Of a stretch of 64,000 nucleotides of DNA, positions 6,294 to 32,959 are shown piece by piece. The DNA is taken from the NCBI RefSeq assembly GCF_017901175.1, contig NZ_CP072793.1, positions 1,178,001-1,242,000 on the forward strand, read 5' to 3'. The first letter of the stretch is position 1; the number at the start of each line of letters is the position of its first letter. The notes beneath the pieces were generated by a model that saw only the letters and a program-made list of their open reading frames with translations, had not been told where the DNA came from and did not search any database. A program made the translations under genes and the position numbers. The DNA is from Thiothrix unzii. GTDB taxonomy: Bacteria > Pseudomonadota > Gammaproteobacteria > Thiotrichales > Thiotrichaceae.

Positions 6294-6871
6294 TGCACTG
6301 CAACGAGCATGAGAAGTGCATGGGAATTGCCGAACAACAGTACAGCAACAGTAAAGCACTGTCACAACTGCGTGAGCGGGTCAAACTGGGGATCGACCAT
6401 GTGGTGAAGGCCGTGGCTGATCCCAGCATGAACATTGCCAATTGCAGCACCTGTCCCAATGCGGGGGATGCCCTCACGGTGATTGAACTCAGTGAATACC
6501 CGATCTTTGCGATGCTGCAAGCCGAATACGATGCCGGGATGCAAGGCTCGTTAGTCGCTAACGAGTACCGGGAATTGTTAGCCAAAGAAATCGCCTACCG
6601 GTTCTTTGCCAAAGCCGCTACCCCGTTACTCACCGCGTTAGCCAATGACGGTGAAGCGGTGGCAGGGACGGAAGGGATGCGGGCGGAACTCGCCGCCAAC
6701 TTGCGGCACATTTTGGAGTCGTCACAACAAGAACTCAATGCCGAGCAGCAGCGCAAAGGGGGGCTAACCAATGTCATTAGCACCTACATGCAAATGAAAA
6801 AAATGGCGACAGCCCGTTATGCACCGTCGCTGACGCAACGGCTACGTTTAGCACAAGTGTTGCGTCGTTAA
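6293..6871 (+). CDS. traH: TraH, C-terminal part (split gene)
   Basis: The 192-residue product has no signal peptide and carries the TraH C-terminal region (CNEHEKCMG, then SQLRERVKLGIDHVV, a NCSTCPN Cys pair and long helices). Alone it would stay in the cytoplasm, although its partner domains are periplasmic, which argues that the functional product is a fusion with the preceding frame. The ATG shares one base with the preceding stop. There is no obvious ribosome site of its own beyond coupling. traG starts 12 bases downstream with a strong site. Confidence 0.8.
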   Translation: MHCNEHEKCMGIAEQQYSNSKALSQLRERVKLGIDHVVKAVADPSMNIANCSTCPNAGDALTVIELSEYPIFAMLQAEYDAGMQGSLVANEYRELLAKEIAYRFFAKAATPLLTALANDGEAVAGTEGMRAELAANLRHILESSQQELNAEQQRKGGLTNVISTYMQMKKMATARYAPSLTQRLRLAQVLRR

Positions 6872-6883
6872 GGGAGTAAAAGC

Positions 6884-15337: not shown

Positions 15338-15988
15338 TCACTTCTGCTGATCCACAAACCACACTGTTGCCTCCACCCGCGACCGCAGGTTGAGTTTGCG
15401 CAGTAAATGCTTGACGTGAACTTTGACCGTACCTTCGGTAATGCCCAGTTCCCGCGCTACCAACTTATTGCTTTTACCCGCCGCGACGCGCTCCAGAATA
15501 CGCTGTTCCTGTTCAGTCAAGCCTGCTTCTGAAGGCGTTTTGGGGTGAATCGCGTCGTGGCGCATCGCGTGTGCCAGCAAGTTGATCAAACGTTCGGTGA
15601 GGGTAATACGTCCCGCCGCCGCTTCCGCCAGCTTTTCCACCAAATCTTCAGGTTCCATTTCCTTGAGCAAATAGCCGTCTGCACCTGCGCGTAACGCTGC
15701 CACCAAATCACTCGCCTGATCGGAAACCGTGAGCATCACCACCCGTGCATCGCTGCCAGAGGCTTTGATGACTTTTAATACCTCAATGCCGCTCATGTCT
15801 TTCATGTTCAGGTCGAGCAAGATCATGTCGGGGGCAAGTTCCAACGCCATGTCGATGCCTTCCTGCCCGCAGGAGGCTTCGCCGACAATGATGAAATCAG
15901 GCACCATATTGACCAAATAGCGCACGCCTTTGCGAAACAGGGGGTGATCGTCCACGATCAGCAGGCTTTGCGGGGTTTCAAGCGGCAT
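15338..15988 (-). CDS. narL: NarL, nitrate/nitrite response regulator
   Basis: The 216-residue response regulator starts at MPLETPQSLLIVDDHPLFRKG. The receiver domain has the acidic pair Asp13/Asp14 and phospho-acceptor Asp59 (MILLDLNM). A LuxR-type helix-turn-helix output domain follows (LTEQEQRILERVAAG, then GTVKVHVKHLLRKLNL). The start has AAGGA ahead of it and lies 11 bases inside the end of narX; a much longer upstream frame overlapping narX is rejected. It binds TACYYMT heptamers, and several such sites are visible nearby. Confidence 0.95.
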   Translation of the reverse strand: MPLETPQSLLIVDDHPLFRKGVRYLVNMVPDFIIVGEASCGQEGIDMALELAPDMILLDLNMKDMSGIEVLKVIKASGSDARVVMLTVSDQASDLVAALRAGADGYLLKEMEPEDLVEKLAEAAAGRITLTERLINLLAHAMRHDAIHPKTPSEAGLTEQEQRILERVAAGKSNKLVARELGITEGTVKVHVKHLLRKLNLRSRVEATVWFVDQQK

Positions 15989-17855
15989 GGGCAATCCTTG
16001 TTTTGGGGGTGAAATCGAGTTGTACGCAAGTGCCACCACCAGCACGCGGCAGGTATTGCAGTATGCCATGCAGGGCGCGGGCGCGTTCGTCCATAATTGC
16101 CATGCCGTAATGGTGCAGGTTGGCGGTTTTTTGGATACCTGCGCCGTCATCTTCGATGCGCAATTGCAGGCTATTGTTATCGTCTTGACGCTGCAACGAC
16201 ACCCACGTTTGGCTGGCGTGCGCGTGTTTGAGGGTGTTGGATAAGGCTTCGCGCACGATTTGCAGCAGGTGAATTTCTTCGTTGGGGGTCAGGTTGAGGT
16301 TGCCTAAACTAACCTCCAGCGTAATTGGTAAGTTGCCGCGTTCGGCAAATTCGGTGGTGGTTTGTGCCAGTGCCATGCCTAAATCATCGTCTTCCATGCG
16401 CAAACGGAAGGTGGAGAGCAGTTCGCGCAATTGCTGGTAGGAACTATTGAGGCCCTCGCGCAATTCTTCCAGTGCAGCGGTAACTTCTGTGACATCCGCC
16501 GGATTTTTTACCGCCGTGCGCAAGCGGCTGACTTGGATTTTCATATAGGCCAGCGATTGTGCCAAGGAATCGTGCAATTCGCGGGCGATGACGGCGCGTT
16601 CTTCCAGTAGGGAAACGCGGCGGTGCTGTTCGCTGCGTTGTTCGGAGGCAATGGTGACACCGATGTGGCGCGATAATGCTTCCAGTAATTGCACTTGCCA
16701 GCGTTCGGCAGTGGTGTTGGCGGGGACATCGACAGCTAACATGCCGTAGCGTTTTTCGGCATCGGTGAGCGGCATCCGCAAGATTTGACGACCGTCGGGG
16801 AGCGTGTCCATGCGGGCGGCGTGCGGGTCGTGGCATTCGGCGCAACTGTTGGCGCGTTGGCACAGCGGGCTTTTGCCATCGCTGGAAGTAGTTGCGACGA
16901 CATCGCCTTGTTGGTCATTGTCTTCTTTGAGGCAAATCGTGCCATTGCCTAAGCCCAACACCGCTTCAGCATCTTTCAACACGTTGTGGAAGACATCGCG
17001 GTCGGGGGCTATGCCGTGTAAGCGCGTGATGGAGCGGTACAGTAAATCCAGTGAACGATTGCTGCGGGTAAGTTCGGCGGTTTTTTGTTCGACCCGTGCT
17101 TCAAGGTCTTGGTAAAGTTTGGAGAGATCCTCTGCCATCAGGTCAAAAGCTCGTCCCAGTTGCCCGATTTCGTCTTCACCCGCAAGGTCGGTGCGTACCG
17201 CGAGATTGCCTTGGCGGATTTGGTCGGTTAGCCCCAATAGCCCTTTGAGCGGGGTGACAAAAATGTTGTTGACCAAGTAAATGGAGAGGATCACGGCGAG
17301 GATCGTGCCAATCACGGCAACACCCAAAATCACCCGCAACACCAAAATCTTGGCTTCGGTGGCTTCTTCAATCTGCTTGACCAGATCATTGATGTGCGCA
17401 ACGAATTGGGGAATGGCATCGAGCAATGCGGCATCGGCGGAGGTGGTGGTGCTCGTGGTCAGTAAGGGAATCAGGTCGGGTTTGATGCGTTGCTGCCAGC
17501 CGCTTTCGACTTGCCGATACACTTGCTTGAGCGGGGTGGTTTCGTCGGTGGGCAATACGGAGAGGATCGAGTCCGCCGCTAAATCGGTTTCAAAGCGTTG
17601 GATGGCTTGTTGCAAGTCGCTGCGGTGCGTGGGGTTGGGGTCATGCAGGATGCGTTGGTAGAGGGATGCCATGCGCCAACTTTGCATCCGCAAACTTCCA
17701 GCGACGTTGATGGCTTCGCCGTTGCCTTGGGTGGTTTCCGCGACCATCCATGACGTGGACATGCCGACAATCGCCAGAACCGTGATGGCAGCGATCATCC
17801 CGCCCAGCCGTAGCAGCAAGGAATTTTGGAGTTTTTTCCACAGAATGCGGTTCAC
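15978..17855 (-). CDS. narX: NarX-type nitrate/nitrite sensor histidine kinase
   Basis: The protein is 625 residues with a GTG start and AGGAAA upstream. TM1 lies near residues 18-38, and the periplasmic domain carries the ligand-binding P-box NGEAINVAGSLRMQSWRM. TM2 (about 170-192), a HAMP domain and a coiled coil follow. A GAF-like central region with a Cys cluster (LCQRANSCAECHDPH) leads to the HisKA_3 box ARELHDSLAQSLAYMKIQ and an HATPase domain (EDDGAGI). It phosphorylates NarL in response to nitrate. The order narX-narL with overlap indicates one transcript. Confidence 0.95.
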   Translation of the reverse strand: MNRILWKKLQNSLLLRLGGMIAAITVLAIVGMSTSWMVAETTQGNGEAINVAGSLRMQSWRMASLYQRILHDPNPTHRSDLQQAIQRFETDLAADSILSVLPTDETTPLKQVYRQVESGWQQRIKPDLIPLLTTSTTTSADAALLDAIPQFVAHINDLVKQIEEATEAKILVLRVILGVAVIGTILAVILSIYLVNNIFVTPLKGLLGLTDQIRQGNLAVRTDLAGEDEIGQLGRAFDLMAEDLSKLYQDLEARVEQKTAELTRSNRSLDLLYRSITRLHGIAPDRDVFHNVLKDAEAVLGLGNGTICLKEDNDQQGDVVATTSSDGKSPLCQRANSCAECHDPHAARMDTLPDGRQILRMPLTDAEKRYGMLAVDVPANTTAERWQVQLLEALSRHIGVTIASEQRSEQHRRVSLLEERAVIARELHDSLAQSLAYMKIQVSRLRTAVKNPADVTEVTAALEELREGLNSSYQQLRELLSTFRLRMEDDDLGMALAQTTTEFAERGNLPITLEVSLGNLNLTPNEEIHLLQIVREALSNTLKHAHASQTWVSLQRQDDNNSLQLRIEDDGAGIQKTANLHHYGMAIMDERARALHGILQYLPRAGGGTCVQLDFTPKTRIAHAA

Positions 17856-18145: not shown

Positions 18146-19402
18146 ATGGCAACGCAGCAATACAAGGCATGGTCGGTCGTCATCATGAGTACGCTGGCTT
18201 TTACCGTGTGCTTCATGATCTGGATGATGTTTGCCGTCATCGGGATTCCTATCAAAGCAACCTTGGGTTTGAACGAAACCCAGTTCGGGATTTTGATCGC
18301 AACACCGGTACTGACCGGCTCATTGATCCGTGTCCCGCTGGGGATGTGGACAGATAAATTCGGTGGGCGCATCGTATTCCTCATCCTGATGCTCTCCACG
18401 GTATTCCCGATTTGGATGATTTCGCAGGCAACCCAATTCTGGCATTTCCTCGTGACCGGCTTGTTTGTCGGGGTAGCGGGTGGTTCATTCACCGTCGGGA
18501 TTGCTTATTGCGCCCGATGGTTCCCGAAAGAACGCCAAGGCTTGGCGATGGGGATTTTCGGCGCAGGCAATACCGGCGCGGCTGTCACCAAATTACTCGC
18601 ACCCATCATTGTCGTTGGGTATGGCTGGACAATGGTTCCGCAAGTTTACGCGGTGCTGATGTTGGTTACGGCGATTGTGTTCTGGTTTTTCACCTTCAGT
18701 GAACCGGGTCACAAGGTCGGTAAATCCGTCACGGTACGCGAACAGCTCGCTGCGTTCAAAGACCCCAAAGTATGGCGTTACAGCCAATATTATTCCATCG
18801 TGTTTGGCGGCTATGTAGCGTTGGCACTGTGGATGACCAAATATTATGTCAGCGAATACGGTTTCGACCTGAAAACCGCCGCGTTCTTGGCAGCCGCGTT
18901 CAGTATCCCCGGCGGGGTGTTGCGGGCGGTCGGTGGTTACTTCTCCGACAAACTCGGCGCACACACCATGACTTGGTGGGTATTGTGGGTTTCGTTGGTG
19001 TGTTTGTTCTTCCTGTCTTACCCGCAAAGTGACATTACGATTCAAACCCTGAATGGGGCAAAAACCTTTCACATGGGTCTAACCCCGACCGTCTTCACCA
19101 TCATCCTATTCACCCTTGGCGTAGTCTTCGCTGTCGGTAAAGCCTCGGTTTTCAAGTACATATCCGACGATTACCCCGACAACATTGGCGTGGTATCCGG
19201 CGTGGTGGGCTTGGCGGGTGGTTTGGGTGGTTTCCTGATGCCGATTATGTTTGGCGCATTGGTGGATCTCACCGGCATTCGCTCTTCCGCCTTCATGCTG
19301 ATGTTCGGGGTGGTGTGGGTGTCGCTGATGTGGATGTATTTCACCGAAGTTCGCCCGGTTCATGCCGATTTACACGAAAAATCCCTCACCACAAACCTTT
19401 AA
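18146..19402 (+). CDS. narK: NarK1-type nitrate transporter (NNP family)
   Basis: This is a 418-residue MFS protein with twelve predicted membrane segments. The NNP nitrate signature is present as GIFGAGNTGAAVTKL and again as VVGLAGGLGGFLMP, and substrate-site arginines fit GSLIRVPLGMWTD and GGVLRAVGGYFSDK. NarK1 types are thought to act as nitrate/proton symporters that feed NarG. It is followed 15 bases later by a second, longer NarK, an arrangement known from denitrifiers where the pair may even be fused. Confidence 0.93.
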   Translation: MATQQYKAWSVVIMSTLAFTVCFMIWMMFAVIGIPIKATLGLNETQFGILIATPVLTGSLIRVPLGMWTDKFGGRIVFLILMLSTVFPIWMISQATQFWHFLVTGLFVGVAGGSFTVGIAYCARWFPKERQGLAMGIFGAGNTGAAVTKLLAPIIVVGYGWTMVPQVYAVLMLVTAIVFWFFTFSEPGHKVGKSVTVREQLAAFKDPKVWRYSQYYSIVFGGYVALALWMTKYYVSEYGFDLKTAAFLAAAFSIPGGVLRAVGGYFSDKLGAHTMTWWVLWVSLVCLFFLSYPQSDITIQTLNGAKTFHMGLTPTVFTIILFTLGVVFAVGKASVFKYISDDYPDNIGVVSGVVGLAGGLGGFLMPIMFGALVDLTGIRSSAFMLMFGVVWVSLMWMYFTEVRPVHADLHEKSLTTNL

Positions 19403-19417
19403 TGCGAGGAATACCTG

Positions 19418-21025
19418 ATGACTGATATTAAAAATTGGGACGTGGAAGACACCACGTTCTGGGAAAGCACCGGCAAGAAGATTGCCAACCGCAATTTGTG
19501 GATTTCGATCCCCAGCCTGCTGATGGGTTTCGCCATCTGGCTGATGTGGGGGATTATCACCGTACAGATGTCCAATCTGGGCTTTCCGTTTAAAGACGAA
19601 GAGTTGTTTACCTTGACGGCAATTGCCGGTTTGGCAGGCGCGACCCTGCGGATTCCGGCTTCTTTCTTTATCCGCTTGGCAGGTGGGCGCAATACCATTT
19701 TCCTGACCACCGCACTGCTGATGATTCCGGCTATCGGCACAGGGTTTGCGCTGCAAAACAAGGAAACTCCACTGCTGACTTTCCAGATTCTGGCATTTTT
19801 GTCCGGGATTGGTGGCGGTAACTTTGCGTGTTCCATGTCCAATATCAGCACGTTTTTCCCCAAGCGTTTGCAAGGTACGGCACTGGGTTTGAACGCGGGT
19901 TTGGGTAACTTTGGTGTGACTACCATGCAAATCCTGATTCCGCTGGTGATGACGATGGGCGTGTTTGGCGCATTGGGTGGCGATTCCATGCCTTTGATGA
20001 AAGATTCCGGCTGGATTCTTGGCAAAATTTTGGCAGGCACAGAAACGTGGGTGCAAAACGCGGGCTTTGTATGGCTGGTATTCCTGATTCCGCTGGCGTT
20101 CTTCGGCTTCTTTGGCATGAATAACCTGTTACCGATTTCTCCGGCAATTGGCGGCACGCTTGCGGCGTTCGTGAAAATTTTGTGGCTGTATGGCTTGGCA
20201 TTTTTGACCACTGCGGTTGGCTTGTATTTGTACCTGCCTGCGCCCACGGGTTTGGGTTTGCTGAATATGTGGATAGCACTGCCGCTGATCATTGTGGCAA
20301 CGCTGGGCATTATGAAATTAGCGGCTTTCGGTGAGATGAAAGCCAATATCAGCAAGCAATTTGCCATTTTCAACAATAAGCATACTTGGTCAATGACCGT
20401 GCTGTACCTGCTGACCTTCGGTTCGTTCATCGGTTTTTCAATGGCATTGCCACTGGCGATCAAGGTCATTTTCGGTAATACCCATGTGTTTGATGCGGCG
20501 ACCCAAGCTTGGGTACATGCAAAAAACCCTAACGCTATTTCGGTGTTCACTTACGCATGGATAGGCCCTTTCGTGGGTGCGTTGATTCGTCCGGTTGGTG
20601 GCTGGATTTCTGACAAAGTGGGCGGCTCTATCGTTACGCAAGTGATTTCATTGGTGATGGTGGGCGCGTCGGCGTATGCCGGTTACATCATGATGCAGGC
20701 TTATCAATCGGCTACCCCCGAAATTTACTTCCAGCCGTTTTTGTGGACATTCGTGTTGCTGTTTGCTGCCACCGGTTTGGGCAATGGCTCGACCTTCCGC
20801 ACGGTTGGGGTGATTTTTGACCGTTTGCAAGCAGGCCCTGTGTTGGGGTGGACTTCAGCAGTAGCGGCTTACGGTTCGTTCATTGCACCGGTGGTGATCG
20901 GGGCGCAAGTGAAAGCGGGTACGCCGGAAAACGCGATGTACGGCTTTGCGATTTTCTACGCGCTGTGCCTGATTTTGAACTGGTGGTTCTACCTACGTAG
21001 CAGCAGCGAGATTAAGAACCCTTAA
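19418..21025 (+). CDS. NarK2-type nitrate/nitrite transporter (NNP family)
   Basis: The 535-residue MFS transporter has the nitrate signatures NAGLGNFGVTTMQIL and TGLGNGSTFRTVGVIF and the arginine motifs GATLRIPASFFIRLAGG and GALIRPVGGWISDKVGG. It is longer than NarK1 because of a large central loop with extra hydrophobic segments. Such second copies usually act as nitrate/nitrite antiporters, exporting nitrite while importing nitrate. Ribosome site GCGAGGA. It probably forms a transcript with narK1 and the downstream narGHJI genes. Confidence 0.92.
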   Translation: MTDIKNWDVEDTTFWESTGKKIANRNLWISIPSLLMGFAIWLMWGIITVQMSNLGFPFKDEELFTLTAIAGLAGATLRIPASFFIRLAGGRNTIFLTTALLMIPAIGTGFALQNKETPLLTFQILAFLSGIGGGNFACSMSNISTFFPKRLQGTALGLNAGLGNFGVTTMQILIPLVMTMGVFGALGGDSMPLMKDSGWILGKILAGTETWVQNAGFVWLVFLIPLAFFGFFGMNNLLPISPAIGGTLAAFVKILWLYGLAFLTTAVGLYLYLPAPTGLGLLNMWIALPLIIVATLGIMKLAAFGEMKANISKQFAIFNNKHTWSMTVLYLLTFGSFIGFSMALPLAIKVIFGNTHVFDAATQAWVHAKNPNAISVFTYAWIGPFVGALIRPVGGWISDKVGGSIVTQVISLVMVGASAYAGYIMMQAYQSATPEIYFQPFLWTFVLLFAATGLGNGSTFRTVGVIFDRLQAGPVLGWTSAVAAYGSFIAPVVIGAQVKAGTPENAMYGFAIFYALCLILNWWFYLRSSSEIKNP

Positions 21026-21476: not shown

Positions 21477-24400
21477 ATGAGCCATTTTCTAGACCGCTTA
21501 ATGTATTTCACCCGCCCGAAGGAAAGCTTCTCTAACGGTCACGGGGTTATGACCATTGAAGACCGCAAATGGGAAGATTCTTATCGCCACCGCTGGCAGC
21601 ATGACAAGGTGGTACGTTCCACCCACGGCGTAAACTGCACGGGTGGCTGTTCATGGAAGATTTTCGTCAAGAACGGCTTGGTTGCATTTGAAATGCAGCA
21701 AACCGATTACCCGCGTACCCGCGAAGACCTGCCTAACCATGAACCGCGTGGTTGCCAGCGCGGGGCTTCGTTTTCGTGGTACCTGTATAGCCCGCACCGT
21801 ATCAAATACCCGCTGATCCGGGGTCGTTTGCTCGACTTGTATCGCGCCGAACGCAGCAGCGGCAAAGATCCGGTGGATGCATGGGCAGCGATCCAAGCCG
21901 ATGAAAACAAACGCCAAAAGTATGTGGCGGTGCGCGGTTTGGGCGGTTTCGTGCGGGCAACATGGGAAGAAGTAACGGAAATCACTGCTGCTGCCAACAT
22001 CCACACCATCAAGAAATGGGGGCCAGACCGTATTTACGGTTTCTCCCCGATTCCAGCGATGTCGATGATTTCCTACGCCGCAGGTTCACGGTACTTGTCC
22101 CTCATTGGCGGGGCTTGCGGTTCTTTTTATGACTGGTACTGCGACTTGCCAGCCGCTTCCCCTCAGACATGGGGCGAGCAGACTGACGTACCGGAATCAG
22201 CCGACTGGTACAACTCTACCTACATCATTATTGCTGGTGCAAACCTGCCGATGACCCGTACCCCGGATGCGCATTTTGCTTTCGAGGTGCGTTACAAGGG
22301 TGCGAAAGTGGTATCAATGGCACCGGACTACGCCGAATACGTCAAAGCCGCCGATTTATGGATGCCAGTACGTCAAGGCACGGATGCCGCCGCGTTTCTG
22401 GCAATGGGTCACGTCGCGCTGAAAGAGTTCTACATCAACAGTCAAGACCCCTACTTCCAAGAATACGCCCGCACTTACACCGACCTGCCGATGCAGGTGA
22501 TGCTGCGCTCACACGAAAACGGTACGTTTGTATCTGACCGTTTGCTCCGCGCTTCTGACTTTGACGGCGCGTTGGGTGAAACCAATAACCCGGACTGGAA
22601 AACCATTGTTTTTGACGAAATGAGCAAGGCATTTGTTGCCCCGAACGGTTCTATCGGTTTCCGTTGGGGTGAGGATGGCAAATGGAACTTACTGCCCAAG
22701 AATGCCGCTGACCAGAGCGATATTCAAGCCGAACTGACTTGCGTCGGACACCAAGACGAAGTGGTTTCCGTTGGCTTCCCGCATTTCAACCATGACGAAC
22801 CTGACCTGCTGTTCCGCAATGTACCCGTGCGCAAAGTGACGCTGGCGAATGGTGAAACCGCGCTGGTGGCTTCGGTATTCGACCTGCAAATTGCCCAATA
22901 CGGCATTGACCGTGGCTTAGGCGGTGGCAATGTTGCCAAAGATTACAGCGATGCCAGCGTGGCTTATACCCCGGCATGGGCAGCCAAAGTCACGGGCGTG
23001 AAAGCGGCGGACATTGAGCGCACCGGGCGCGAGTTTGCCTACAATGCTTCCAAGACCAAGGGCAAGTCGATGGTCATCATGGGCGCGGCAATCAACCACT
23101 GGTATCACAACGACCTCGCTTACCGTTCCATTATGAACCTGCTGCACATGTGCGGTTGCGTAGGGCAATCTGGCGGCGGCTGGGCGCATTATGTCGGGCA
23201 GGAAAAACTGCGTCCGCAAGCGGGCTGGGCACCGATTGCCTTCGCGCTTGACTGGCAGCGTCCGCCGCGCCACATGAACTCCACCTCGTACTGGTATTTC
23301 CACACCGACCAGTGGCGTTACGAAACCCTCGACGCTGACACGCTGTTGACACCTGCCGGGAAAGCCAAGAACAAGGGCTACTCGCTGGCAGATTACAACG
23401 TGGCTGCTTCGCGCATGGGCTGGTTGCCAACCGCGCCGCACTGGAATGCCAACCCGCTGGAGTTGGTGGCTGAGGCTGAAAAAGCCGGGGCAACCGATGA
23501 AGCCAGCATCAGCAAACACATTGTTGGCAAGCTGCAAGACGGCTCGTTGGATGTGGCATTCGCCGACGTGGATAACCCGGTCAACTGGCCGCGCAACCTG
23601 TTCGTATGGCGTGCCAACCTGATTGGGACTTCTGCCAAAGGTCACGAATACTTCCTCAAACACCTGCTGGGTGCGCAAAACGGCGTGCTGCAAGAAGGCG
23701 GTTCCGGGCGTGCCAACAAGGAAGTGAAGTGGCACGAAGATGCGCCCATCGGCAAGCTCGACTTGATGGTGGACATCAACTTCCGCCTCAATTCCACTGG
23801 CGCGTATTCCGACATTATCCTGCCAACGGCGACGTGGTATGAGAAAAACGACCTCAACACCACCGATATGCACCCCTTCATCCACCCATTGGCAGAAGCG
23901 GTATCACCGGGGTGGGAATCCAAGTCTGACTGGCAAATTTTCAAGTCGATTGCCAAGACTTTCTCGCCACTGGCAGAAAAGCACTTGGGTACACGCAAGG
24001 ACGTGGTAGCCCTGCCGATGCAGCACGATTCACCGATGGAACTGGCGCAACCGTTTGGGCAGGTAGTTGACTGGAAGCGTGACGGCGTTGCCCCGATTCC
24101 GGGTAAAACCATGCCGATCTTGAAAGTGGTCGAGCGTAATTTCGGTGACACCTACAAAAAGTACATCGCCCTAGGGCCGTTGATGATCAAACTCGGCAAC
24201 AACATCAAGGGTGTGGACTGGAACACTGAAGCTGAATACGAAGAGCTGAAGAAGTGCAACTACACGGTGAAAGAACCGGGCGTTTCCTTCGGGATGCCGT
24301 CGCTGGAAGAAGACATCAGCGTGTGTGATTCGGTGATGCGCATGGCTCCTGAAACCAATGGCGAAGTGGCGCACAAGGCATGGTCAGCGATGTCGAAAAA

Positions 24401-25235
24401 GACCGGCATTGACCATCACCACCTGTACGCCGGACGGCACGAGGACAAGATCACCTTCCGCGACATCCAAGCCCAGCCGCGCAAGATCATTACCGCGCCT
24501 ACCTGGTCGGGGATTGAGTCTGAAACCGTGTCGTATACCGCCGGTTACACCAATATCCACGAACACATCCCGTTCCGCACCCTGACCGGACGGGCGCATT
24601 TCTACCAAGACCACGAGTGGATGCTGGATTTCGGTGAAGGTTTCTGTACCTACAAGCCGATGGTGGATTTGGGTGAGCTTAAAGGTTTGCCTGCTGCTGT
24701 CCTCAACAAGCCGCACCTGAGCCTGAACTGGATTACCCCGCACTCCAAATGGGGCATCCATTCCAGCTATCAGGACAATTTGCGGATGCTGACGCTGTTC
24801 CGGGGCGGGCCTTACGTGTGGGTGGCGGAAGACGATGCCAAAACCATTGGGCTGGAAGACAACGACTGGGTGGAAGCGGTCAACCACAACGGTGCAACCG
24901 TGGCACGGGTGATTGTGTCGCAGCGTATCCCTCGCGGGATGGCGATGATGTACCACGCACAGGAGAAGAATATCAACGTACCGGGTTCGCCTTCCACTGG
25001 GAAGCGCGGCGGTATTTTGAACTCCGTGACCCGCGTACTGGTCAAGCCGACCAATATGATCGGCGGTTATGCGCAGTTGGCGTACAGCTTCAACTATTAC
25101 GGCACGGTCGGTTGCCAACGCGACACGATGGTGGCTTTGCACAAGATCGCAGACAAGGACGTGGACTGGCTGGAACGTCCGCTCACCCCTGCCCGCGAAG
25201 CGCAACGCAACCCCAACGGCATCGGCCCCAAGTAA
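21477..25235 (+). CDS. narG: NarG, respiratory nitrate reductase catalytic subunit
   Basis: The 1252-residue protein begins MSHFLDRLMYF and has no Tat signal peptide cleavage site, as for cytoplasm-facing NarG. The N-terminal FS0 iron-sulfur site reads HGVNCTGGCSWKIF, and the molybdenum-ligating Asp lies within ESADWYNSTYIIIAGANLP. It reduces nitrate to nitrite using a bis-MGD cofactor and electrons from NarH. GGGGAG precedes the start, which follows the DsrC-like stop by three bases, so they share a transcript. Length matches E. coli NarG (1247). Confidence 0.98.
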   Translation: MSHFLDRLMYFTRPKESFSNGHGVMTIEDRKWEDSYRHRWQHDKVVRSTHGVNCTGGCSWKIFVKNGLVAFEMQQTDYPRTREDLPNHEPRGCQRGASFSWYLYSPHRIKYPLIRGRLLDLYRAERSSGKDPVDAWAAIQADENKRQKYVAVRGLGGFVRATWEEVTEITAAANIHTIKKWGPDRIYGFSPIPAMSMISYAAGSRYLSLIGGACGSFYDWYCDLPAASPQTWGEQTDVPESADWYNSTYIIIAGANLPMTRTPDAHFAFEVRYKGAKVVSMAPDYAEYVKAADLWMPVRQGTDAAAFLAMGHVALKEFYINSQDPYFQEYARTYTDLPMQVMLRSHENGTFVSDRLLRASDFDGALGETNNPDWKTIVFDEMSKAFVAPNGSIGFRWGEDGKWNLLPKNAADQSDIQAELTCVGHQDEVVSVGFPHFNHDEPDLLFRNVPVRKVTLANGETALVASVFDLQIAQYGIDRGLGGGNVAKDYSDASVAYTPAWAAKVTGVKAADIERTGREFAYNASKTKGKSMVIMGAAINHWYHNDLAYRSIMNLLHMCGCVGQSGGGWAHYVGQEKLRPQAGWAPIAFALDWQRPPRHMNSTSYWYFHTDQWRYETLDADTLLTPAGKAKNKGYSLADYNVAASRMGWLPTAPHWNANPLELVAEAEKAGATDEASISKHIVGKLQDGSLDVAFADVDNPVNWPRNLFVWRANLIGTSAKGHEYFLKHLLGAQNGVLQEGGSGRANKEVKWHEDAPIGKLDLMVDINFRLNSTGAYSDIILPTATWYEKNDLNTTDMHPFIHPLAEAVSPGWESKSDWQIFKSIAKTFSPLAEKHLGTRKDVVALPMQHDSPMELAQPFGQVVDWKRDGVAPIPGKTMPILKVVERNFGDTYKKYIALGPLMIKLGNNIKGVDWNTEAEYEELKKCNYTVKEPGVSFGMPSLEEDISVCDSVMRMAPETNGEVAHKAWSAMSKKTGIDHHHLYAGRHEDKITFRDIQAQPRKIITAPTWSGIESETVSYTAGYTNIHEHIPFRTLTGRAHFYQDHEWMLDFGEGFCTYKPMVDLGELKGLPAAVLNKPHLSLNWITPHSKWGIHSSYQDNLRMLTLFRGGPYVWVAEDDAKTIGLEDNDWVEAVNHNGATVARVIVSQRIPRGMAMMYHAQEKNINVPGSPSTGKRGGILNSVTRVLVKPTNMIGGYAQLAYSFNYYGTVGCQRDTMVALHKIADKDVDWLERPLTPAREAQRNPNGIGPK

Positions 25236-25245
25236 GGAGATTTAC

Positions 25246-26796
25246 ATGAAAGTCAGAGCACAATTCGCATTCGTCTTCAACTTGGACAAGTGCATCGGTT
25301 GCCATACCTGTTCCGTCACCTGCAAGAACGTGTGGACGAACCGTAAGGGCGTGGAATATGCGTGGTTCAACAACGTCGAATCCAAACCGGGTATCGGCTA
25401 CCCCAAAAACTGGGCAGACCAGAACCAGTGGAAAGGCGGCTGGGAACTCAAAGGCGGCAAGCTGGAGCTGAAATCAGGCGACCGCAAGTCCAAACTGCTG
25501 AACATTTTCGCCAACCCGGATATGCCGGAAATTGACGATTACTACGAGCCGTTCACCTACAACTACGCACATTTGCAGAATGCACCGTTGCTGGAAGCCA
25601 CCCCAACTGCCCGCCCACAATCGCAGATTACGGGTGAGACGATGGAAAAAATCCACTGGGGGCCAAACTGGGAAGATGACCTTGCAGGCGAATACTCCAA
25701 GCGTAGCAAGGACGTGGACATGGATGGCATCCAGAAGGAGATGTACAGCCAGTTCGAGAACACCTTCCATATGTATCTGCCGCGTATCTGCAACCATTGC
25801 CTGAACCCGGCGTGTGTGGCGGCTTGCCCATCCGGTTCGATCTACAAGCGTGAGGAAGACGGCATTGTACTGGTGGATCAGGACAAATGCCGGGGCTGGC
25901 GGATGTGTATTTCCTCCTGCCCGTACAAGAAGGTGTTCTACAACTGGGAATCCGGCAAGGCAGAAAAGTGCATCGGTTGCTACCCACGGGTGGAATCCGG
26001 GATGCCAACCGTGTGTTCCGAGTCCTGCGTTGGGCGTATCCGTTACAACGGCATTATGCTGTATGACGCGGACAAGATCGAAACGCTGGCAAGCACCCAG
26101 AACGAGCAGGACTTGTACGAAGCCCAGTGCAACATCTTTCTCGACCCCAACGACCCTAAGGTGATCGAAGCCGCACGCGCTGAAGGCATTAACGAAGACT
26201 GGATCATCGCCGCGCAAAAATCACCGATCTACAAGATGGCGATTGACTGGAAGATTGCGTTCCCGATGCACCCGGAATTCCGCACCCTGCCGATGGTGTG
26301 GTATGTGCCACCGCTTTCCCCAGTACAGTCGCAGATCGACCAAGGTAACCTCCCCGTCGGCCCCGATGGTGCAATCCCGTTGGCAGGCACGATGCGTACC
26401 CCGATCCAGTACCTTGCCAACCTGCTGACCGCAGGCAAAACCGCGCCAGTGGAAAGTGCCCTGAACCGCCTGATTGCAATGCGCAGTTACCAGCGTTCGG
26501 TGCATGTGGAAGGCATTGCTGATACCCGCGCACTGGATGCGGCGGGCATCACCGAAGACCAAGCCAAGGAAATGTACCGTTACCTGGCGATTGCCAACTA
26601 TGAAGACCGTTTCGTCATCCCCACCGGGCATGAGGAAGTGCGGCTGGAAGACTTCTACGCCTTCCAAGGGCAGAACGGTTTCACCTTCGGCAACGACTCT
26701 TCCGCAGGCATTTCCAAAACCTCCTTGTTCCCTGAACGGCGCAAGGAAACGGTGGAAGTCTGCGTTATCCAACCCTTGTCCAAGTTGAAGCCATAG
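25246..26796 (+). CDS. narH: NarH, nitrate reductase iron-sulfur subunit
   Basis: The 516-residue protein starts at MKVRAQFAFVFNLDKC; AAGGAG supports this start, and a longer frame reaching into narG is spurious. It has four cluster motifs: CIGCHTCSVTCK, CNHCLNPACVAACP, CRGWRMCISSCPYKK (Trp replaces the second Cys, giving the [3Fe-4S] cluster) and CIGCYPRVESGMPTVC. It passes electrons from NarI haem to NarG on the cytoplasmic side. Confidence 0.98.
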   Translation: MKVRAQFAFVFNLDKCIGCHTCSVTCKNVWTNRKGVEYAWFNNVESKPGIGYPKNWADQNQWKGGWELKGGKLELKSGDRKSKLLNIFANPDMPEIDDYYEPFTYNYAHLQNAPLLEATPTARPQSQITGETMEKIHWGPNWEDDLAGEYSKRSKDVDMDGIQKEMYSQFENTFHMYLPRICNHCLNPACVAACPSGSIYKREEDGIVLVDQDKCRGWRMCISSCPYKKVFYNWESGKAEKCIGCYPRVESGMPTVCSESCVGRIRYNGIMLYDADKIETLASTQNEQDLYEAQCNIFLDPNDPKVIEAARAEGINEDWIIAAQKSPIYKMAIDWKIAFPMHPEFRTLPMVWYVPPLSPVQSQIDQGNLPVGPDGAIPLAGTMRTPIQYLANLLTAGKTAPVESALNRLIAMRSYQRSVHVEGIADTRALDAAGITEDQAKEMYRYLAIANYEDRFVIPTGHEEVRLEDFYAFQGQNGFTFGNDSSAGISKTSLFPERRKETVEVCVIQPLSKLKP

Positions 26797-26806
26797 GAGG
26801 TACACC

Positions 26807-27316
26807 ATGTTTTACCGTTTACTCGCAAGGTTGTTGGATTACCCAACGGCTGAATTGCAGAGTGCTTTACCCGAAATCTGGGCGCAACTGGAAAAACTAC
26901 CGGAAGGGGAACGCAAGGTGGTGGGCAACTTTCTTGCCCATTTGCACTGGGAGGATATGACCGAATGGCAAGCATTATACGTGCGTACTTTTGACATGGT
27001 TCCTGATAATGCCTTGCATCTGAGCCATCACCTGTTTGGGGATGACAAAAACCGGGGGCCTGCACTGATCGACTTGAGTGAGTTCTACAAAGAATACGGT
27101 CTGGAACTGGCAGCCAATGAGCTGCCGGATTACCTGCCGTTGATGCTGGAATTCAGCAGCCAGTTGGAGCAGGACGAAGCCAAGATGTTCCTGAGTCAAT
27201 GGGTCAAAGTGCTGGGCCAGCTTGCCCTGAATCTGGAGAAAGTGGAAAGCCCTTATGCACCGCTAATCCGCCTGATTGAACAACGCAGCCAGCTTGTTAC
27301 TGCAAAAGCGGCATGA
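26807..27316 (+). CDS. narJ: NarJ, nitrate reductase assembly chaperone
   Basis: The 169-residue protein has the TorD/NarJ-type all-helical pattern: MFYRLLARLLDYPTAELQ, then YVRTFDMVPDNALHLSHHLFGDD and a PDYLPLMLEFSSQL segment. NarJ binds the NarG N-terminus and is needed for molybdenum cofactor insertion. It is shorter than E. coli NarJ (236) but within the range of gammaproteobacterial homologues. Ribosome site AGGAGG; position between narH and narI is standard. Confidence 0.93.
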   Translation: MFYRLLARLLDYPTAELQSALPEIWAQLEKLPEGERKVVGNFLAHLHWEDMTEWQALYVRTFDMVPDNALHLSHHLFGDDKNRGPALIDLSEFYKEYGLELAANELPDYLPLMLEFSSQLEQDEAKMFLSQWVKVLGQLALNLEKVESPYAPLIRLIEQRSQLVTAKAA

Positions 27317-27331
27317 AGGGAGGAATGACCC

Positions 27332-28024
27332 ATGTTTGATTTACATACATTTTTATACGGGGTATTCCCCTATATCGCCACCATCGTGTTCCTGTTGGGA
27401 AGCTGGATACGTTTCGACCATGAGCAATATACTTGGAAAAGTGACTCGAGTCAGTTACTGTCCAAACAGAATATGCGGCTGATGAGCAATTTGTTCCACG
27501 TCGGTATTTTGGGGATTTTCTTCGGGCATGTCGCAGGGATGGTTCTGCCACATGGCTTGTGGGTAGGGTTGGGTATTTCGGATCTTGCGCACCAGTGGAT
27601 TGCGATCTTGGCAGGCTTGGCATTCGGTGGTGCAGTGGTTGCCGGTGGCGCAATGCTGTGGCAGCGGCGGATGTTCAATAAGCGGGTACGCGCCGCGAGC
27701 CGCTGGATGGACATCAATATCTTGGGTTGGTTGGTAATTACTGCCTGCTTTGGGTTGCTGACTGTGCCGTTTTCCATCGGTCATGCGGTGAAAGGTGATG
27801 TTAGCACCATGTTGGTATTGGGTGAGTGGATTCGTAGTATCTTGATCCTGCAACCTGAGCCGGAACTGATCCGCAATGTGGACACCGTTTACAAGGTTCA
27901 TGTGTTCTTCGGGATGTCGGTGTTTCTGTTCTTCCCGTTCACCCGTTTGGTTCATGTATGGAGCGCACCTGTGCCGTACTTGTTCCGTGCTTATCAAGTG
28001 GTGCGTACTAAACGCCGCCTGTAG
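27332..28024 (+). CDS. narI: NarI, nitrate reductase cytochrome b subunit
   Basis: The 230-residue protein has five hydrophobic segments. Histidines suitable for the two b-haems appear in LFHVGILGIFFGHV and GHAVKGDVST/YKVHVFFGMS, and the family motif FPFTRLVHVWSAPVPYLFR is near the C-terminus. NarI oxidises quinol at the periplasmic side and anchors NarGH. GGGAGGA precedes the start. It is the last gene of narGHJI; two RNA elements and hairpins follow before moeA. Confidence 0.96.
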   Translation: MFDLHTFLYGVFPYIATIVFLLGSWIRFDHEQYTWKSDSSQLLSKQNMRLMSNLFHVGILGIFFGHVAGMVLPHGLWVGLGISDLAHQWIAILAGLAFGGAVVAGGAMLWQRRMFNKRVRAASRWMDINILGWLVITACFGLLTVPFSIGHAVKGDVSTMLVLGEWIRSILILQPEPELIRNVDTVYKVHVFFGMSVFLFFPFTRLVHVWSAPVPYLFRAYQVVRTKRRL

Positions 28025-28043: not shown

Positions 28044-28090
28044 GGTTAGACCCTCCGAAACTGACTGGATGTAAGCCACCAGTCAGGGGT
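28044..28090 (+). ncRNA. Candidate cis-regulatory RNA element, copy 1 (upstream of moeA-moaA)
   Basis: GGTTAG then ACCC (28050-28053), bulge TCCGAAA, stem CTGACTGG (28061-28068) with CCAGTCAG (28079-28086) around loop ATGTAAGCCA, then GGGT (28087-28090) closing on ACCC. Copy 2 has the same outline with compensating stem changes, so the fold is supported by covariation. It is far shorter than the known Moco riboswitch (about 140 bases) and I cannot match it to a known class. It lies after narI, directly before a terminator hairpin, and most likely acts on read-through into the molybdenum cofactor genes. Confidence 0.6.
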
Positions 28091-28092
28091 TG

Positions 28093-28119
28093 CGGGCGGT
28101 AGCAATACCGCCCGTTTTT
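28093..28119 (+). terminator. Intrinsic terminator after RNA element copy 1
   Basis: CGGGCGGTA-GCAA-TACCGCCCG, a perfect 9-base-pair stem with a GCAA loop, followed by TTTTT. It would end nar transcripts, or act as the expression platform of the RNA element three bases upstream. Confidence 0.85.
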
Positions 28120-28137
28120 AATAATTCTATTTTTCGT

Positions 28138-28184
28138 GGTTAACCCTCCGAACCGACCAGCAAATGTAGTCACTGGTCGTGGGT
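28138..28184 (+). ncRNA. Candidate cis-regulatory RNA element, copy 2
   Basis: GGTTA then ACCC (28143-28146), bulge TCCGAAC, stem CGACCAG (28154-28160) with CTGGTCG (28173-28179) around loop CAAATGTAGTCA, one base, then GGGT (28181-28184). Relative to copy 1 the stem differs at paired positions on both sides, while ACCCTCCGAA, the TGTA..G.CA loop residues and GGGT are kept. Copies start 94 bases apart. The downstream hairpin ends just ahead of the moeA ribosome site. Confidence 0.6.
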
Positions 28185-28187
28185 GTT

Positions 28188-28213
28188 GGCGATAGCAATA
28201 TCGCCCATTTTTT
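28188..28213 (+). terminator. Terminator-like hairpin before moeA
   Basis: GGCGATA-GCAA-TATCGCC, a 7-base-pair stem with the same GCAA loop as the first hairpin, then CA and TTTTTT. It ends a few bases before AAGGAG of moeA. Being between a structured RNA and the gene it precedes, it is a plausible attenuator rather than an operon end. Confidence 0.65.
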
Positions 28214-28226
28214 CAAGGAGAAAACA

Positions 28227-29483
28227 ATGCCTGAATTGAATGTCAATCCACAATCATTCGACAAAAAACAACTGATGCTCAGTGTTGAGGAAGCTCAGGC
28301 TCGTATCTTGGAAGCCATATTGCCCATTACCACGAAGGAGCGCGTTGGTTTACGGCAAGGATTGGGGCGTATTCTGGCAGATCCGTTACTGGCACGGATG
28401 GACGTTCCCTCTCACCGCAATTCCGCGATGGATGGTTATGCATTTCGACACATTGATACAGATATTCACAAGGCATTTTATGTAGCGGGTGTTTCAATGG
28501 CTGGGCATCCTTTCCACGACTCACTGGATATTGGTCAATGTATACGCATCATGACAGGAGCAGTGGTTCCTGCCGATGCCGATACGGTAGTGATGCAGGA
28601 GCATGTATCACGAGAAGGGGACATCATGACCCTGCAACGAATTCCCATTCCGGGGGCTAATGTCCGTCATCCCGGTGAGGATTTGTGTACTGGGGATGCA
28701 GTTTTACTTGCTGGACGAAAATTGAATGCTGCTGACCTTGGGGTACTGGCCTCGCAAGGCATTGGCGAAGTGGATGTGTTACGCCGTCCACGTGTGGCCT
28801 TTTTTTCCACTGGCGATGAACTCAAGGGTATCGGTGAAGTCCTGCAACCGGGTGATGTGTATGACAGCAACCGTTATACCCTATTCGGGATGCTGAACAA
28901 GCTGGATGTAGACATCCTCGATCTGGGGGTTATCCCTGATCAGCAAGAAGCGGTAGAACACGCTTTTGCTCAGGCAAGCCAACTTGCTGATGTGGTGATT
29001 ACCAGCGGTGGTGTCTCTGTAGGGGATGCCGATTATGTGACGGATACCTTGCGTAAGACTGGCACGGTGGATTTCTGGAAAATTGCCGTCAAACCCGGCA
29101 AGCCACTGGCGTTCGGTAAGCTCAATGACCGCTGCCTGTTCTTTGGTTTACCCGGTAATCCAGTATCAGTGATGGCGACTTTCCTGTTATTTACTCGTGC
29201 CGCCATTCTGAAGCTGCGAGGGGAAACGATGATCGAACTTCCTGAATACTCAGCTATTTGTGATACACCTTTGCAGAAAGCACCGGGGAGAAAGGACTAC
29301 CAGCGGGGTGTTTGCCATTTGGATGTACGAGGGCAATGGCACGTTCGCAGTACGGGGATGCAAGGTTCACACATCCTAAGCTCCATGAGTACCGCAAACT
29401 GTTTTATTGCTCTGCCTTTGCTGGCAGGCGACGTAAACGCGGGTGAGATAGTCAATATCATTCCGTTCCATGAACTACTCTGA
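28227..29483 (+). CDS. moeA: MoeA, molybdopterin molybdenumtransferase
   Basis: The 418-residue protein starts at MPELNVNPQSFDKK, with AAGGAG upstream. Family motifs are present: DVPSHRNSAMDGYAFR, RIMTGAVVPADADTVVMQE, ITSGGVSVGDADYV and FFGLPGNPVSVM. MoeA inserts molybdate into adenylylated molybdopterin, giving active Moco needed by NarG and the NasA enzyme in this window. It is followed by moaA after eight bases, and its expression probably depends on the two RNA elements in front of it. Confidence 0.95.
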   Translation: MPELNVNPQSFDKKQLMLSVEEAQARILEAILPITTKERVGLRQGLGRILADPLLARMDVPSHRNSAMDGYAFRHIDTDIHKAFYVAGVSMAGHPFHDSLDIGQCIRIMTGAVVPADADTVVMQEHVSREGDIMTLQRIPIPGANVRHPGEDLCTGDAVLLAGRKLNAADLGVLASQGIGEVDVLRRPRVAFFSTGDELKGIGEVLQPGDVYDSNRYTLFGMLNKLDVDILDLGVIPDQQEAVEHAFAQASQLADVVITSGGVSVGDADYVTDTLRKTGTVDFWKIAVKPGKPLAFGKLNDRCLFFGLPGNPVSVMATFLLFTRAAILKLRGETMIELPEYSAICDTPLQKAPGRKDYQRGVCHLDVRGQWHVRSTGMQGSHILSSMSTANCFIALPLLAGDVNAGEIVNIIPFHELL

Positions 29484-30527: not shown

Positions 30528-30550
30528 CATTAACCACAGCGAAAATACCC

Positions 30551-31561
30551 ATGCCCAAACCACTACTCGAACTCATTTGCCCCGCTGGCAGCTTGCCTGC
30601 TCTCAAGGCAGCAGTAGACCACGGTGCAGACGGCGTTTACCTCGGTCTGAAAGACAATACTAACGCCCGCAATTTCAGCGGGCTGAATTTTGATGCCAAA
30701 GCACTGACGGAAGGTATCCGCTACGCTCATGCCAAAAACCGCAAAGTACTGATGGCACTCAACACCTTTCCGCAGCCTGCCACGCTCAAACGCTGGCAAC
30801 AAGCGGTGGATACCGCTGCCAGCGCGGGCTTGGATGCAATTATTCTTGCCGACCCCGGTCTGATGGCGTATGCGCAAAAGCACCACCCGCAATTACGCCT
30901 ACACCTTTCCGTGCAAGGCTCGGCAACCAATTACGAAGCCATCAATTTCTACCACGAACATTTCGGTATCCAACGTGCCGTCGTACCGCGTGTGTTATCG
31001 CTGCAACAAGTGGAAAACGTGGTAAGGCACACCCCAGTGGAAATCGAGCTGTTCGGCTTCGGCGGCTTGTGTGTGATGGTGGAAGGGCGGTGTTTGTTAT
31101 CGTCTTATGCGTGCGGTGATTCACCCAATACCTTTGGGGCGTGTTCCCCCGGTCATGCGGTACGCTGGCAACAAACCCCGCAAGGCATGGAGACCCGCCT
31201 CAATGGAGTGCTGATTGACCGTTACACCGACCACGAAAAAGCAGGCTACCCCACGCTGTGTAAAGGTCGTTTTGAAGTGCAAGGCGAAACCTATTACGCG
31301 CTAGAAGAGCCGACCAGCCTGAATACGCTGGAAATGTTGCCCGATATGCACCGCCTCGGCATTGCCGCCATCAAAATCGAAGGTCGCCAGCGCAGCCCCG
31401 CCTATGTTGCCCAAGTCACCCAAGTGTGGCGTGCCGCAATTGATGCAGTGAAGCGCAACCCGCAAGGCTTTAAAGCACAACCCGCGTGGTTGGCACAACT
31501 CGACAAGGTTTCCGAGGGCAGTATGCACACCCTCGGTGCTTATTACCGCCCGTGGAAATGA
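30551..31561 (+). CDS. ubiU: UbiU, U32-family subunit of O2-independent ubiquinone hydroxylation
   Basis: The 336-residue protein starting MPKPLLELICPAGSLPAL aligns closely in memory with E. coli UbiU (YhbU): GLKDNTNARNFSGLNF, VSVQ-like LSVQGSATNYEAINFYH, and the Fe-S cysteines in FGGLCVMVEGRCLLSS, GACSPGH and LCKGRF. UbiU-UbiV carry [4Fe-4S] clusters and hydroxylate ubiquinone precursors without O2, using prephenate as oxygen donor. In-frame starts upstream (about 30512) lie before the predicted transcription start, so 30551 is preferred. Confidence 0.93.
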   Translation: MPKPLLELICPAGSLPALKAAVDHGADGVYLGLKDNTNARNFSGLNFDAKALTEGIRYAHAKNRKVLMALNTFPQPATLKRWQQAVDTAASAGLDAIILADPGLMAYAQKHHPQLRLHLSVQGSATNYEAINFYHEHFGIQRAVVPRVLSLQQVENVVRHTPVEIELFGFGGLCVMVEGRCLLSSYACGDSPNTFGACSPGHAVRWQQTPQGMETRLNGVLIDRYTDHEKAGYPTLCKGRFEVQGETYYALEEPTSLNTLEMLPDMHRLGIAAIKIEGRQRSPAYVAQVTQVWRAAIDAVKRNPQGFKAQPAWLAQLDKVSEGSMHTLGAYYRPWK

Positions 31562-31564
31562 CCT

Positions 31565-32464
31565 ATGACAATTGCTATCAAACTCACACTGGGTTCTTTG
31601 CTGTATTATTGGCCGCGTCAGACGGTGCTATCTTTCTACCAACAGGTAGAAAATTGGGCGGTGGACACGGTGTATTTGGGCGAAACTGTGTGCTCCCGCC
31701 GCCACGAATTGCGCCTTGATGATTGGTTGGGGATTGCGGAACGGCTGAACAGTGCGGGCAAGGAAGTGGTGCTTGCTACCCAGACCTTGATCGAATCCGA
31801 ATCCGACCTCAAGGCATTGCGTAAGATCGTGGATAATGGCCCTTTTCGCGTGGAAGCCAACGAATTTGGAGCAGTACGACTACTGTTTGAAGAGGGAATG
31901 CCGTTTGTGGCAGGTTCTGCCTTAAACGTTTACAATCCCGACACCTTGGCATTGCTGGCAAGTTGGGGGGCAGTGCGTTGGATACCTCCCGTCGAAATGC
32001 CACGCACCATGCTGGCTGCCATGCCCGTTCCGGCGACGATGGAAACGGAAGTGTTTGCTTATGGGCGTTTGCCATTGGCTTTCTCATCGCGTTGCTTTAC
32101 CGCCCGCCATTACAACTTGCAGAAAGATGCTTGCCAATTCCGCTGTATCGACCACCCGGACGGCTTGGCCATGAATACCCGCGAAGGTGAAGGTTTCCTC
32201 GCTATCAATGGTACGCAAACCCAATCGGGCAAAGTGCATTCACTCGTCCACCATTTGGGCGAATTGGTGGGAACACCCGTTACCGCCTTGCGCCTGTCAC
32301 CACAGCGACAGGGTATGGCAGAGGTGGTGGCAACTTTCCGTGCCGCGCTGGATGGTGAGTTACCCGCTGCGCAAGCCGCAACACAGTTGGCAACGTATTT
32401 GCCTGCCCCCGCTTGCGACGGGTATTGGTTGGGAACGGCGGGTTTAAATCCCGTCACTGTTTAA
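31565..32464 (+). CDS. ubiV: UbiV, U32-family partner of UbiU
   Basis: The 299-residue U32 protein matches UbiV (YhbV): LGSLLYYWPRQTVLSFYQQ, DTVYLGETVCSRRHEL, and Cys residues in SSRCFTARHYNLQKDACQFRC for its cluster. It forms a complex with UbiU and acts in anaerobic ubiquinone synthesis. Three bases separate it from ubiU, so the two are coupled. Nothing is truncated. Confidence 0.92.
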   Translation: MTIAIKLTLGSLLYYWPRQTVLSFYQQVENWAVDTVYLGETVCSRRHELRLDDWLGIAERLNSAGKEVVLATQTLIESESDLKALRKIVDNGPFRVEANEFGAVRLLFEEGMPFVAGSALNVYNPDTLALLASWGAVRWIPPVEMPRTMLAAMPVPATMETEVFAYGRLPLAFSSRCFTARHYNLQKDACQFRCIDHPDGLAMNTREGEGFLAINGTQTQSGKVHSLVHHLGELVGTPVTALRLSPQRQGMAEVVATFRAALDGELPAAQAATQLATYLPAPACDGYWLGTAGLNPVTV

Positions 32465-32473
32465 AGGAAAATA

Positions 32474-32959
32474 ATGATGACACTAACACCTCCCGCAACA
32501 CTGGTAAAGTTGCTGACGCGCTTGCCTGCCTACCCCGCTTCGCTGGCTTTCGTCAGTGCTTTCAACCTGACGGTGTGGAAAAGCTTGCAAGAGCTGGAGT
32601 GGGATGCGCTGCAAGGGCGGCGTTTTTGCGTCCATATCCGTGACCTTGGTATCAGGCTTGGGTTTGCGGTGGGGCGTTCTGGCTTGCAGGCACACGCGGC
32701 GGAAGAGGCGGATGTGACATTTACTGCCACGCTGATGGATTTCATCCGTTTAGCGATGCGGCTGGAAGATCCGGATACGCTGTTTTTCAACCGCCGCTTG
32801 CTGATTGAGGGCGATACCGATCTGGGCTTGCGCACCAAGAATATGCTGGATGGGGTGGAGTTTGATACCCTGCTGGCAAGTTTCCCACGCACCATCGGCA
32901 AAGTCATCCAACGAGTGCGGAAACAGGCATTGCAAGTGACACCCGCTCATGCCCCTTGA
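32474..32959 (+). CDS. ubiT: UbiT, SCP2-domain accessory factor for anaerobic ubiquinone synthesis
   Basis: The 161-residue protein contains an SCP2 sterol-carrier-like domain (LGIRLGFAVGRSGLQAHAAEEADVTFTATLMDFIRLAM, split here only by wording: GIRLGFAVGRSG and EADVTFTATLMDF). UbiT binds the hydrophobic quinone intermediates. Ribosome site AAGGA. The gene ends 12 bases before the convergent bioB stop. The presence of all three ubiUVT genes next to nitrate respiration genes fits quinol supply to NarI without oxygen. Confidence 0.9.
   Translation: MMTLTPPATLVKLLTRLPAYPASLAFVSAFNLTVWKSLQELEWDALQGRRFCVHIRDLGIRLGFAVGRSGLQAHAAEEADVTFTATLMDFIRLAMRLEDPDTLFFNRRLLIEGDTDLGLRTKNMLDGVEFDTLLASFPRTIGKVIQRVRKQALQVTPAHAP

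Follow-up and report, generated by a model that had tools for sequence, protein, structure and literature searches.

Within the window, a stretch of 64,000 nucleotides from Thiothrix unzii, the nitrate reductase genes narGHJI are followed on the same strand by moeA and moaA. The interval between the end of narI (28024) and the ATG of moeA at 28227 holds two tandem copies of a bulged hairpin, which we refer to as the element, and each copy is followed after 0-3 nt by an intrinsic terminator (Table 1). The end of terminator 2 directly abuts the moeA ribosome site AAGGAG (28215-28220). An earlier, sequence-only reading of this locus had described the two copies, their common ACCCTCCGAA, the stem of 7-8 bp, the closing GGGT, the GCAA hairpin with a T run behind each copy and the approach of the second terminator to the ribosome site, and all of these features were found as described. 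The GGTTA that it counted as part of the repeat is present at both copies, with starts at 28044 and 28138 that are spaced by 94 nt, but it lies outside the conserved element and occurs in only 4 of the 13 copies now known. A pseudoknot between GGTTA and the loop was dropped as a candidate for this reason. The single loop pattern proposed for both copies needs a gap, since ATGTAAGCCA of copy 1 can be matched to CAAATGTAGTCA of copy 2 only in this way.

Table 1. Features of the region between narG and moaA; positions are those of the window.
Feature	Position	Strand	Description
narG, narH, narJ, narI	21477..28024	+	upstream transcription unit; NCBIfam above curated cut-offs
Element copy 1	28049..28090	+	bulged hairpin of ~42 nt
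Copy 1 closing helix	28050-28053/28087-28090	+	ACCC/GGGT
Copy 1 bulge	28054-28060	+	TCCGAAA
Copy 1 stem	28061-28068/28079-28086	+	8 bp
Copy 1 loop	28069-28078	+	ATGTAAGCCA
Intrinsic terminator 1	28092..28119	+	10-bp stem (hairpin 28092-28115), GCAA loop 28102-28105, T run
Element copy 2	28143..28184	+	bulged hairpin of ~42 nt
Copy 2 closing helix	28143-28146/28181-28184	+	ACCC/GGGT
Copy 2 bulge		+	TCCGAAC
Copy 2 stem	28154-28160/28173-28179	+	7 bp
Copy 2 loop	28161-28172	+	CAAATGTAGTCA
Intrinsic terminator 2	28188..28213	+	7-bp stem (hairpin 28188-28205), GCAA loop 28195-28198, T run
moeA	28227-29483	+	NCBIfam above curated cut-offs
moaA	29488-30477	+	NCBIfam above curated cut-offs

The two terminator-like sites compare with 0.6 +/- 0.8 in shuffled sequence, and the T runs are the presumed sites at which transcription stops. 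A search for sigma-70-like promoters between 27700 and 28300 found none, where 0.7 would be expected by chance. Further downstream on the same strand lie ubiU, ubiV and ubiT (30533-32956), genes of oxygen-independent ubiquinone synthesis, a position fitting for quinone supply to nitrate respiration. Upstream of narG are two MFS transporter genes (18146-21022, + strand), probably narK-like as judged by position, and a gene on the - strand (15981-17855) for a PilJ-HAMP-HisKA_3 sensor kinase whose domain order suggests a NarX-like protein. F-type conjugation genes with TraC, TraF and TraG domains (945-9892) also lie upstream of the nar region, and between the two are a resolvase gene (12574) and a fragment of a mutator-family transposase gene (14315-15067).

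Homologues of the element were collected with exact patterns and MoeA neighbourhoods, from which a six-copy covariance model and then a model of 13 matches were built. This gave 13 copies, spread over 12 loci and 10 of the 16 Thiothrix genomes, every one of them behind narI. The genome of the window has three, the two described here and a third (c3) between ppiC and moaA of a second nar operon. No credible copy was found in the other 47 genomes of the family or among the sampled 369 class and 398 phylum genomes, where the matches that were read are attributed to chance; the number of candidates scored per genome was 14-21 in searches over 40 genomes (96 in the family search), so that distant forms can be missed. 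In the class sample 42 of the 369 genomes, the window's own included, matched at E <= 0.5, and 16 of the 29 foreign loci returned were read and judged chance. The same judgement was reached for weak matches in other genera (G016, E 0.70; G018, E 0.046) and for the three foreign matches at E <= 0.02 in the phylum sample, and 17 weaker matches within the genus (E 0.05-1.9) were counted as chance without being read. An exact-pattern match in G039 was rejected because it lies inside a coding region. A pattern search confined to the GUAAGCC loop type returned 13 matches, five of the element and eight of other sequence. Six plasmid records gave matches of 23-31 nt, none covering more than 15% of the query. 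Two of the 16 class loci read, from two genomes of one other genus (L059 and L068, near position 1501), share ACCCCCCGAAAC and GGGGT at E 0.04-0.08; their hairpin-like string, GACCCCCCGAAAC...GCGGGGT, has a loop and terminator unlike those of the element. The structured RNA has thus been found so far only in Thiothrix, also by the covariance-model search of other nitrate reducers that the sequence-only reading had proposed, whose sensitivity was limited.

The element is of nearly fixed size, and its 13 copies hardly vary in ACCC-UCCGAAA, in the GUAAGCCA-type loop and in GGGU. Mean identity is 1.0 in ACCC, 0.98 in GGGU, 0.96 in the bulge and 0.84 in the loop, and 0.68 in the columns upstream of the element. 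At 0.71-0.74 the upper stem varies more than any other part of the element and yet remains paired. In an alignment fitted to the covariance model (13 copies, 12 distinct rows; one false match of 11 bits, L040:2513, removed beforehand), 97% of the cells of 12 pairs can pair, compared to 19-47% in slid controls. On this model-fitted alignment two-sided changes fill 21 cells against 6.4 after shuffling, a value reached by none of 500 shuffles. By a weaker measure, two-sided changes affect 5 of the 12 pairs, a number that 36 of 500 shuffles also reach, and the number of further pair types does not exceed that of shuffles in this fitted alignment (333/500). RNAalifold, given no structure and a MAFFT alignment of 11 copies with their terminators (near-duplicates G053 and G054 omitted), returned the same two hairpins as a consensus of 22 pairs, seven of them with double-sided changes. 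Counts on the MAFFT alignment were 17 two-sided cells against 5.9 shuffled (0/500) and seven pairs (2/500), and pair types again did not exceed shuffles. These results support the earlier proposal that the stems covary. The added proposal that even the terminator hairpins covary is correct but thin, as copies 1 and 2 differ in this way at a single terminator pair, G-C in one and A-U in the other. No covariation is seen in the closing helix, whose ACCC is fixed. In one copy, G059a, the 5' strand ACCCUCC is unchanged although its 3' partner is altered; this single case hints that the strand may matter for its own sequence.

Directly behind all 13 copies stands a hairpin with a GNRA loop (10 GCAA, 2 GCGA, 1 GTGA), a stem of at least 7 bp and a run of 4-7 T in an 8-base window, so that a GC-rich hairpin directly before a T run, the mark of an intrinsic terminator, is present in the window and at every copy. 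When the modules are folded in isolation, the predicted minimum-energy structure holds both hairpins side by side in 13 of 13 copies; with flanking sequence the predicted fold keeps the terminator in all 13 and drops the upper stem in c3, G057 and G061. The folding energy of copy 1 with its terminator is far below that of shuffles (z -4.7), while that of copy 2 is not (z -1.5, 14 of 200 shuffles being equally good). Copy 2 (28137-28184) and the copy in G057 (L042, 1501-1552) form a subtype with a 12-nt loop ending in GTAGTCA and a 7-bp stem, both before moeA, and copy 1 resembles the copies of G058 and G054. The tandem in the window may join two lineages rather than reflect a fresh duplication.

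At gathering level, Rfam 15 gave no match to any family in the window and nine homologue loci, and two short stretches searched up to E 10 gave sub-threshold matches only, the one with the highest bits, to sroB, aligning mainly on the terminator. This agrees with the sequence-only reading, which could assign the structured RNA in front of moeA-moaA to no known class; that reading is partly supported overall and the structured element itself is confirmed. Like the element, the Moco riboswitch (RF01055) stands before Moco synthesis genes. It is much larger than ~42 nt, and the element has no gathering-level match to it. ANTAR targets, the sites of NasR-type antitermination, consist of two hairpins with hexaloops that both carry A1 and G4; the likeness lies in the two hairpins, the second being a terminator, and in the nitrate-related genes. 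An ANTAR target was rejected on the terminator hexaloop, which is AGCAAT in 10 of 13 copies (A at position 4), and on the upper loop of 8-12 nt. A CsrA/RsmA site presents GGA at a hairpin loop, and this was rejected on three of the 13 copies (c2, G057 and G059b), whose loops lack GGA. Integron attC sites and kink-turns were dropped on sequence grounds. The Moco-II motif (RF01713), whose context is Moco and nitrate reductase genes, is of similar size at 46 model positions compared to ~42 nt. The element has no match to its covariance model even at E 10 in the two short stretches, a separation made by the model. The Moco-II model likewise found nothing in the window's own genome, 274 class and 398 phylum genomes, but the controls were also silent, so that this does not show its absence. 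Moco-II is listed for Proteobacteria (PMC2864571). Like an intrinsic terminator or an intra-operon attenuator, the Thiothrix module places a GC-rich hairpin with a T run between genes of the same operon; unlike them, it has 0-3 nt ahead of this a conserved and covarying hairpin, bulged, in which the sequences of loop and bulge are fixed. Our literature search found no paper that joins Thiothrix with a riboswitch or describes such a layer of RNA control in nar operons.

The genomic context links the element to nar rather than to Moco genes. There are 14 narI loci in 12 of the 16 genus genomes, and the element follows 12 of them, either immediately or with ppiC or a TusE/DsrC-family gene in between (moaA and ppiC of the relatives were identified by similarity to the proteins of the window, the ppiC of its own genome excepted). 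In G049 (L044) a ppiC frame that lacks the usual C-terminus runs into an intact element and ends at a TAA in the loop. An intact moeA or moaA lies behind the element on the same strand at 8 of the 12 loci. At the other four no intact Moco gene follows: an apparent remnant of the moaA start was read in G054, rlmD follows in G056, no recognised Moco gene in G052, and in G053 a convergent pdxB-like gene whose PdxB score is below the cut-off. Conversely, the four genus genomes without narI all have moeA and none has the element, and in the window's own genome none of the Moco genes outside the two nar operons was found to carry one (three copies in all). G051 and G060 have narI-ppiC-moaA operons (loci L105 and L103) with neither hairpin nor terminator. 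Because they fall at two places inside element-bearing clades of the narI-ppiC tree (support 0.99 and 0.93, on a root chosen at G057), two losses appear to be the simplest reading. The two genomes form a natural deletion pair for the module. That G052 and G053 keep the module although no Moco gene follows is a weak argument, as the tree shows them to be closely related.

These data bear on the regulatory signal that the sequence-only reading had suggested, namely Moco, molybdate or nitrate. In favour of a compact riboswitch, with Moco, a precursor, molybdate or a nitrogen oxide as the ligand that switches the terminator, are the aptamer-like look of the element, whose stem varies while its unpaired bases are conserved, the adjoining terminator, the Moco gene behind 8 of the 12 loci and the tandem copies in the window. 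However, the element tracks narI and not the Moco genes, and it has no credible copy outside the genus in the family, class and phylum samples. In addition, forbidding the terminator helix, at a cost of 13.6-21.3 kcal/mol over the 13 copies, did not reveal a shared antiterminator: the upper stem is kept in 10 of 13 copies, the closing helix too in eight, and c3, G058 and G053 shift to pairings that differ from each other. As no alternative helix is shared by the copies, this speaks against a riboswitch that works by swapping helices, the only mode that such folding covers, as opposed to tertiary or protein effects. Antitermination and sequestration of the ribosome site were rejected on the same grounds. 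In the predicted folds of c3 and G061 the loop pairs with a GTGG before moaA, a string that the moeA leaders lack. A Moco riboswitch is thus disfavoured and in our judgement very unlikely; the element is not like a classical metabolite riboswitch. From the earlier proposal of a riboswitch or attenuator, the attenuator remains plausible because intrinsic terminators sit inside the operon.

The module could also simply terminate the nar operon constitutively, with a neighbouring hairpin that only aids termination or shields the mRNA end and regulates nothing. The high cost of forbidding the terminator in every copy, the persistence of the module at operon ends without Moco genes and its apparent double loss would all suit this explanation. 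In such a terminator there would be no need for the 7-nt bulge to be near-invariant and the loop to be conserved while the stem changes freely, nor for the module to stay beside moeA or moaA at 8 of 12 loci, and we regard this explanation as unlikely.

The strongest rival to an attenuator module is an sRNA derived from the 3'UTR, cut or released from the end of the nar mRNA, with the invariant ACCCUCCGAAA strand as its seed. Precedent exists in NarS, which according to a review is cut from the 3' end of narK mRNA and represses nirC (PMC8139620). The likeness to this type lies in the place at the 3' end of a nitrate-respiration message with an intrinsic terminator last; compared with NarS, which comes from narK and targets nirC, the Thiothrix module is only a putative source of an sRNA and usually has a Moco gene behind it. 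At 12 of 14 nar loci the module does lie, with its own terminator and T run, at what would be an mRNA 3' end, behind narI, ppiC or the TusE/DsrC-family gene, and it is retained where no Moco gene follows. The constancy of ACCCUCC in G059a also suits a seed, but ACCC is paired in the predicted fold. Among the matches listed, seven genomes have a ccoN ribosome site, TTCGGAGGG, to which CCCUCCGAA is exactly complementary; ccoN encodes subunit I of cbb3 oxidase and was identified by NCBIfam in G055 only. Five of these, among the matches listed, have the element (G049, G056, G057, G058 and G059), but the match also occurs in G051 and G055, which lack it, so that among these genomes it does not track the element. 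In all seven this ccoN site (L151 and L143-L148, upstream of ccoN) also pairs exactly with CCCTCCGAA of the element. Moreover, the ACCCUCCGAAA strand resembles the anti-Shine-Dalgarno sequence and its complement would resemble a ribosome site anyway: TTCGGAGG-N4-11-ATG has 202 matches in the 16 genomes against 155 in a backward control. ccoN as a target is therefore a lead and not support, and we consider an sRNA to be somewhat unlikely. A combined scheme, in which an sRNA released during nitrate respiration would use its anti-Shine-Dalgarno-like strand to silence, for example, ccoN and its terminator would at the same time curb Moco synthesis in cis, appears very unlikely. If it were true, a nar sRNA would couple the nitrate and oxygen respiratory chains.

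The explanation that we favour, tentatively and at slightly short of an even chance, is that element and terminator form a nar-specific 3'-end module that attenuates read-through and whose loop and bulge are read by a partner. Transcripts of the nitrate reductase genes probably terminate at the module, and expression of the cofactor genes that lie behind it in most cases is probably held down. RNA polymerase would mostly halt at the module, leaving a narGHJI(-ppiC) mRNA that ends in two stable hairpins. moeA or moaA would then be reached by read-through only, which would keep the Moco enzymes below nitrate reductase, and in the window the tandem copies would double the stop. The near-invariant ACCC-UCCGAAA strand and the GUAAGCCA-type loop may be recognised by a protein, RNA or small-molecule partner, and this putative partner would adjust how much transcription reads through or what becomes of the mRNA end. 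At 4 of the 12 loci attenuation cannot be all that the module does, since no intact Moco gene stands behind it. Further points against this explanation are that G051 and G060 manage without the module, that the upper stem is missing from the predicted fold of c3, G057 and G061 once flanks are included, that the closing helix does not covary and that the c3-type and c2-type loops differ.

Should the module act as a tuned attenuator or as an sRNA, it would represent a nar-specific layer of RNA control that we did not find described in the literature searched. With the element, nitrate respiration in filamentous sulfur bacteria gains a structured RNA that covariation supports and that Rfam 15 does not contain. 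The number of copies in related operons is two, one or none, and some operons have a copy but no intact Moco gene; because the operons vary in this way, the split between expression of nitrate reductase and expression of its cofactor can be tested across natural strains.
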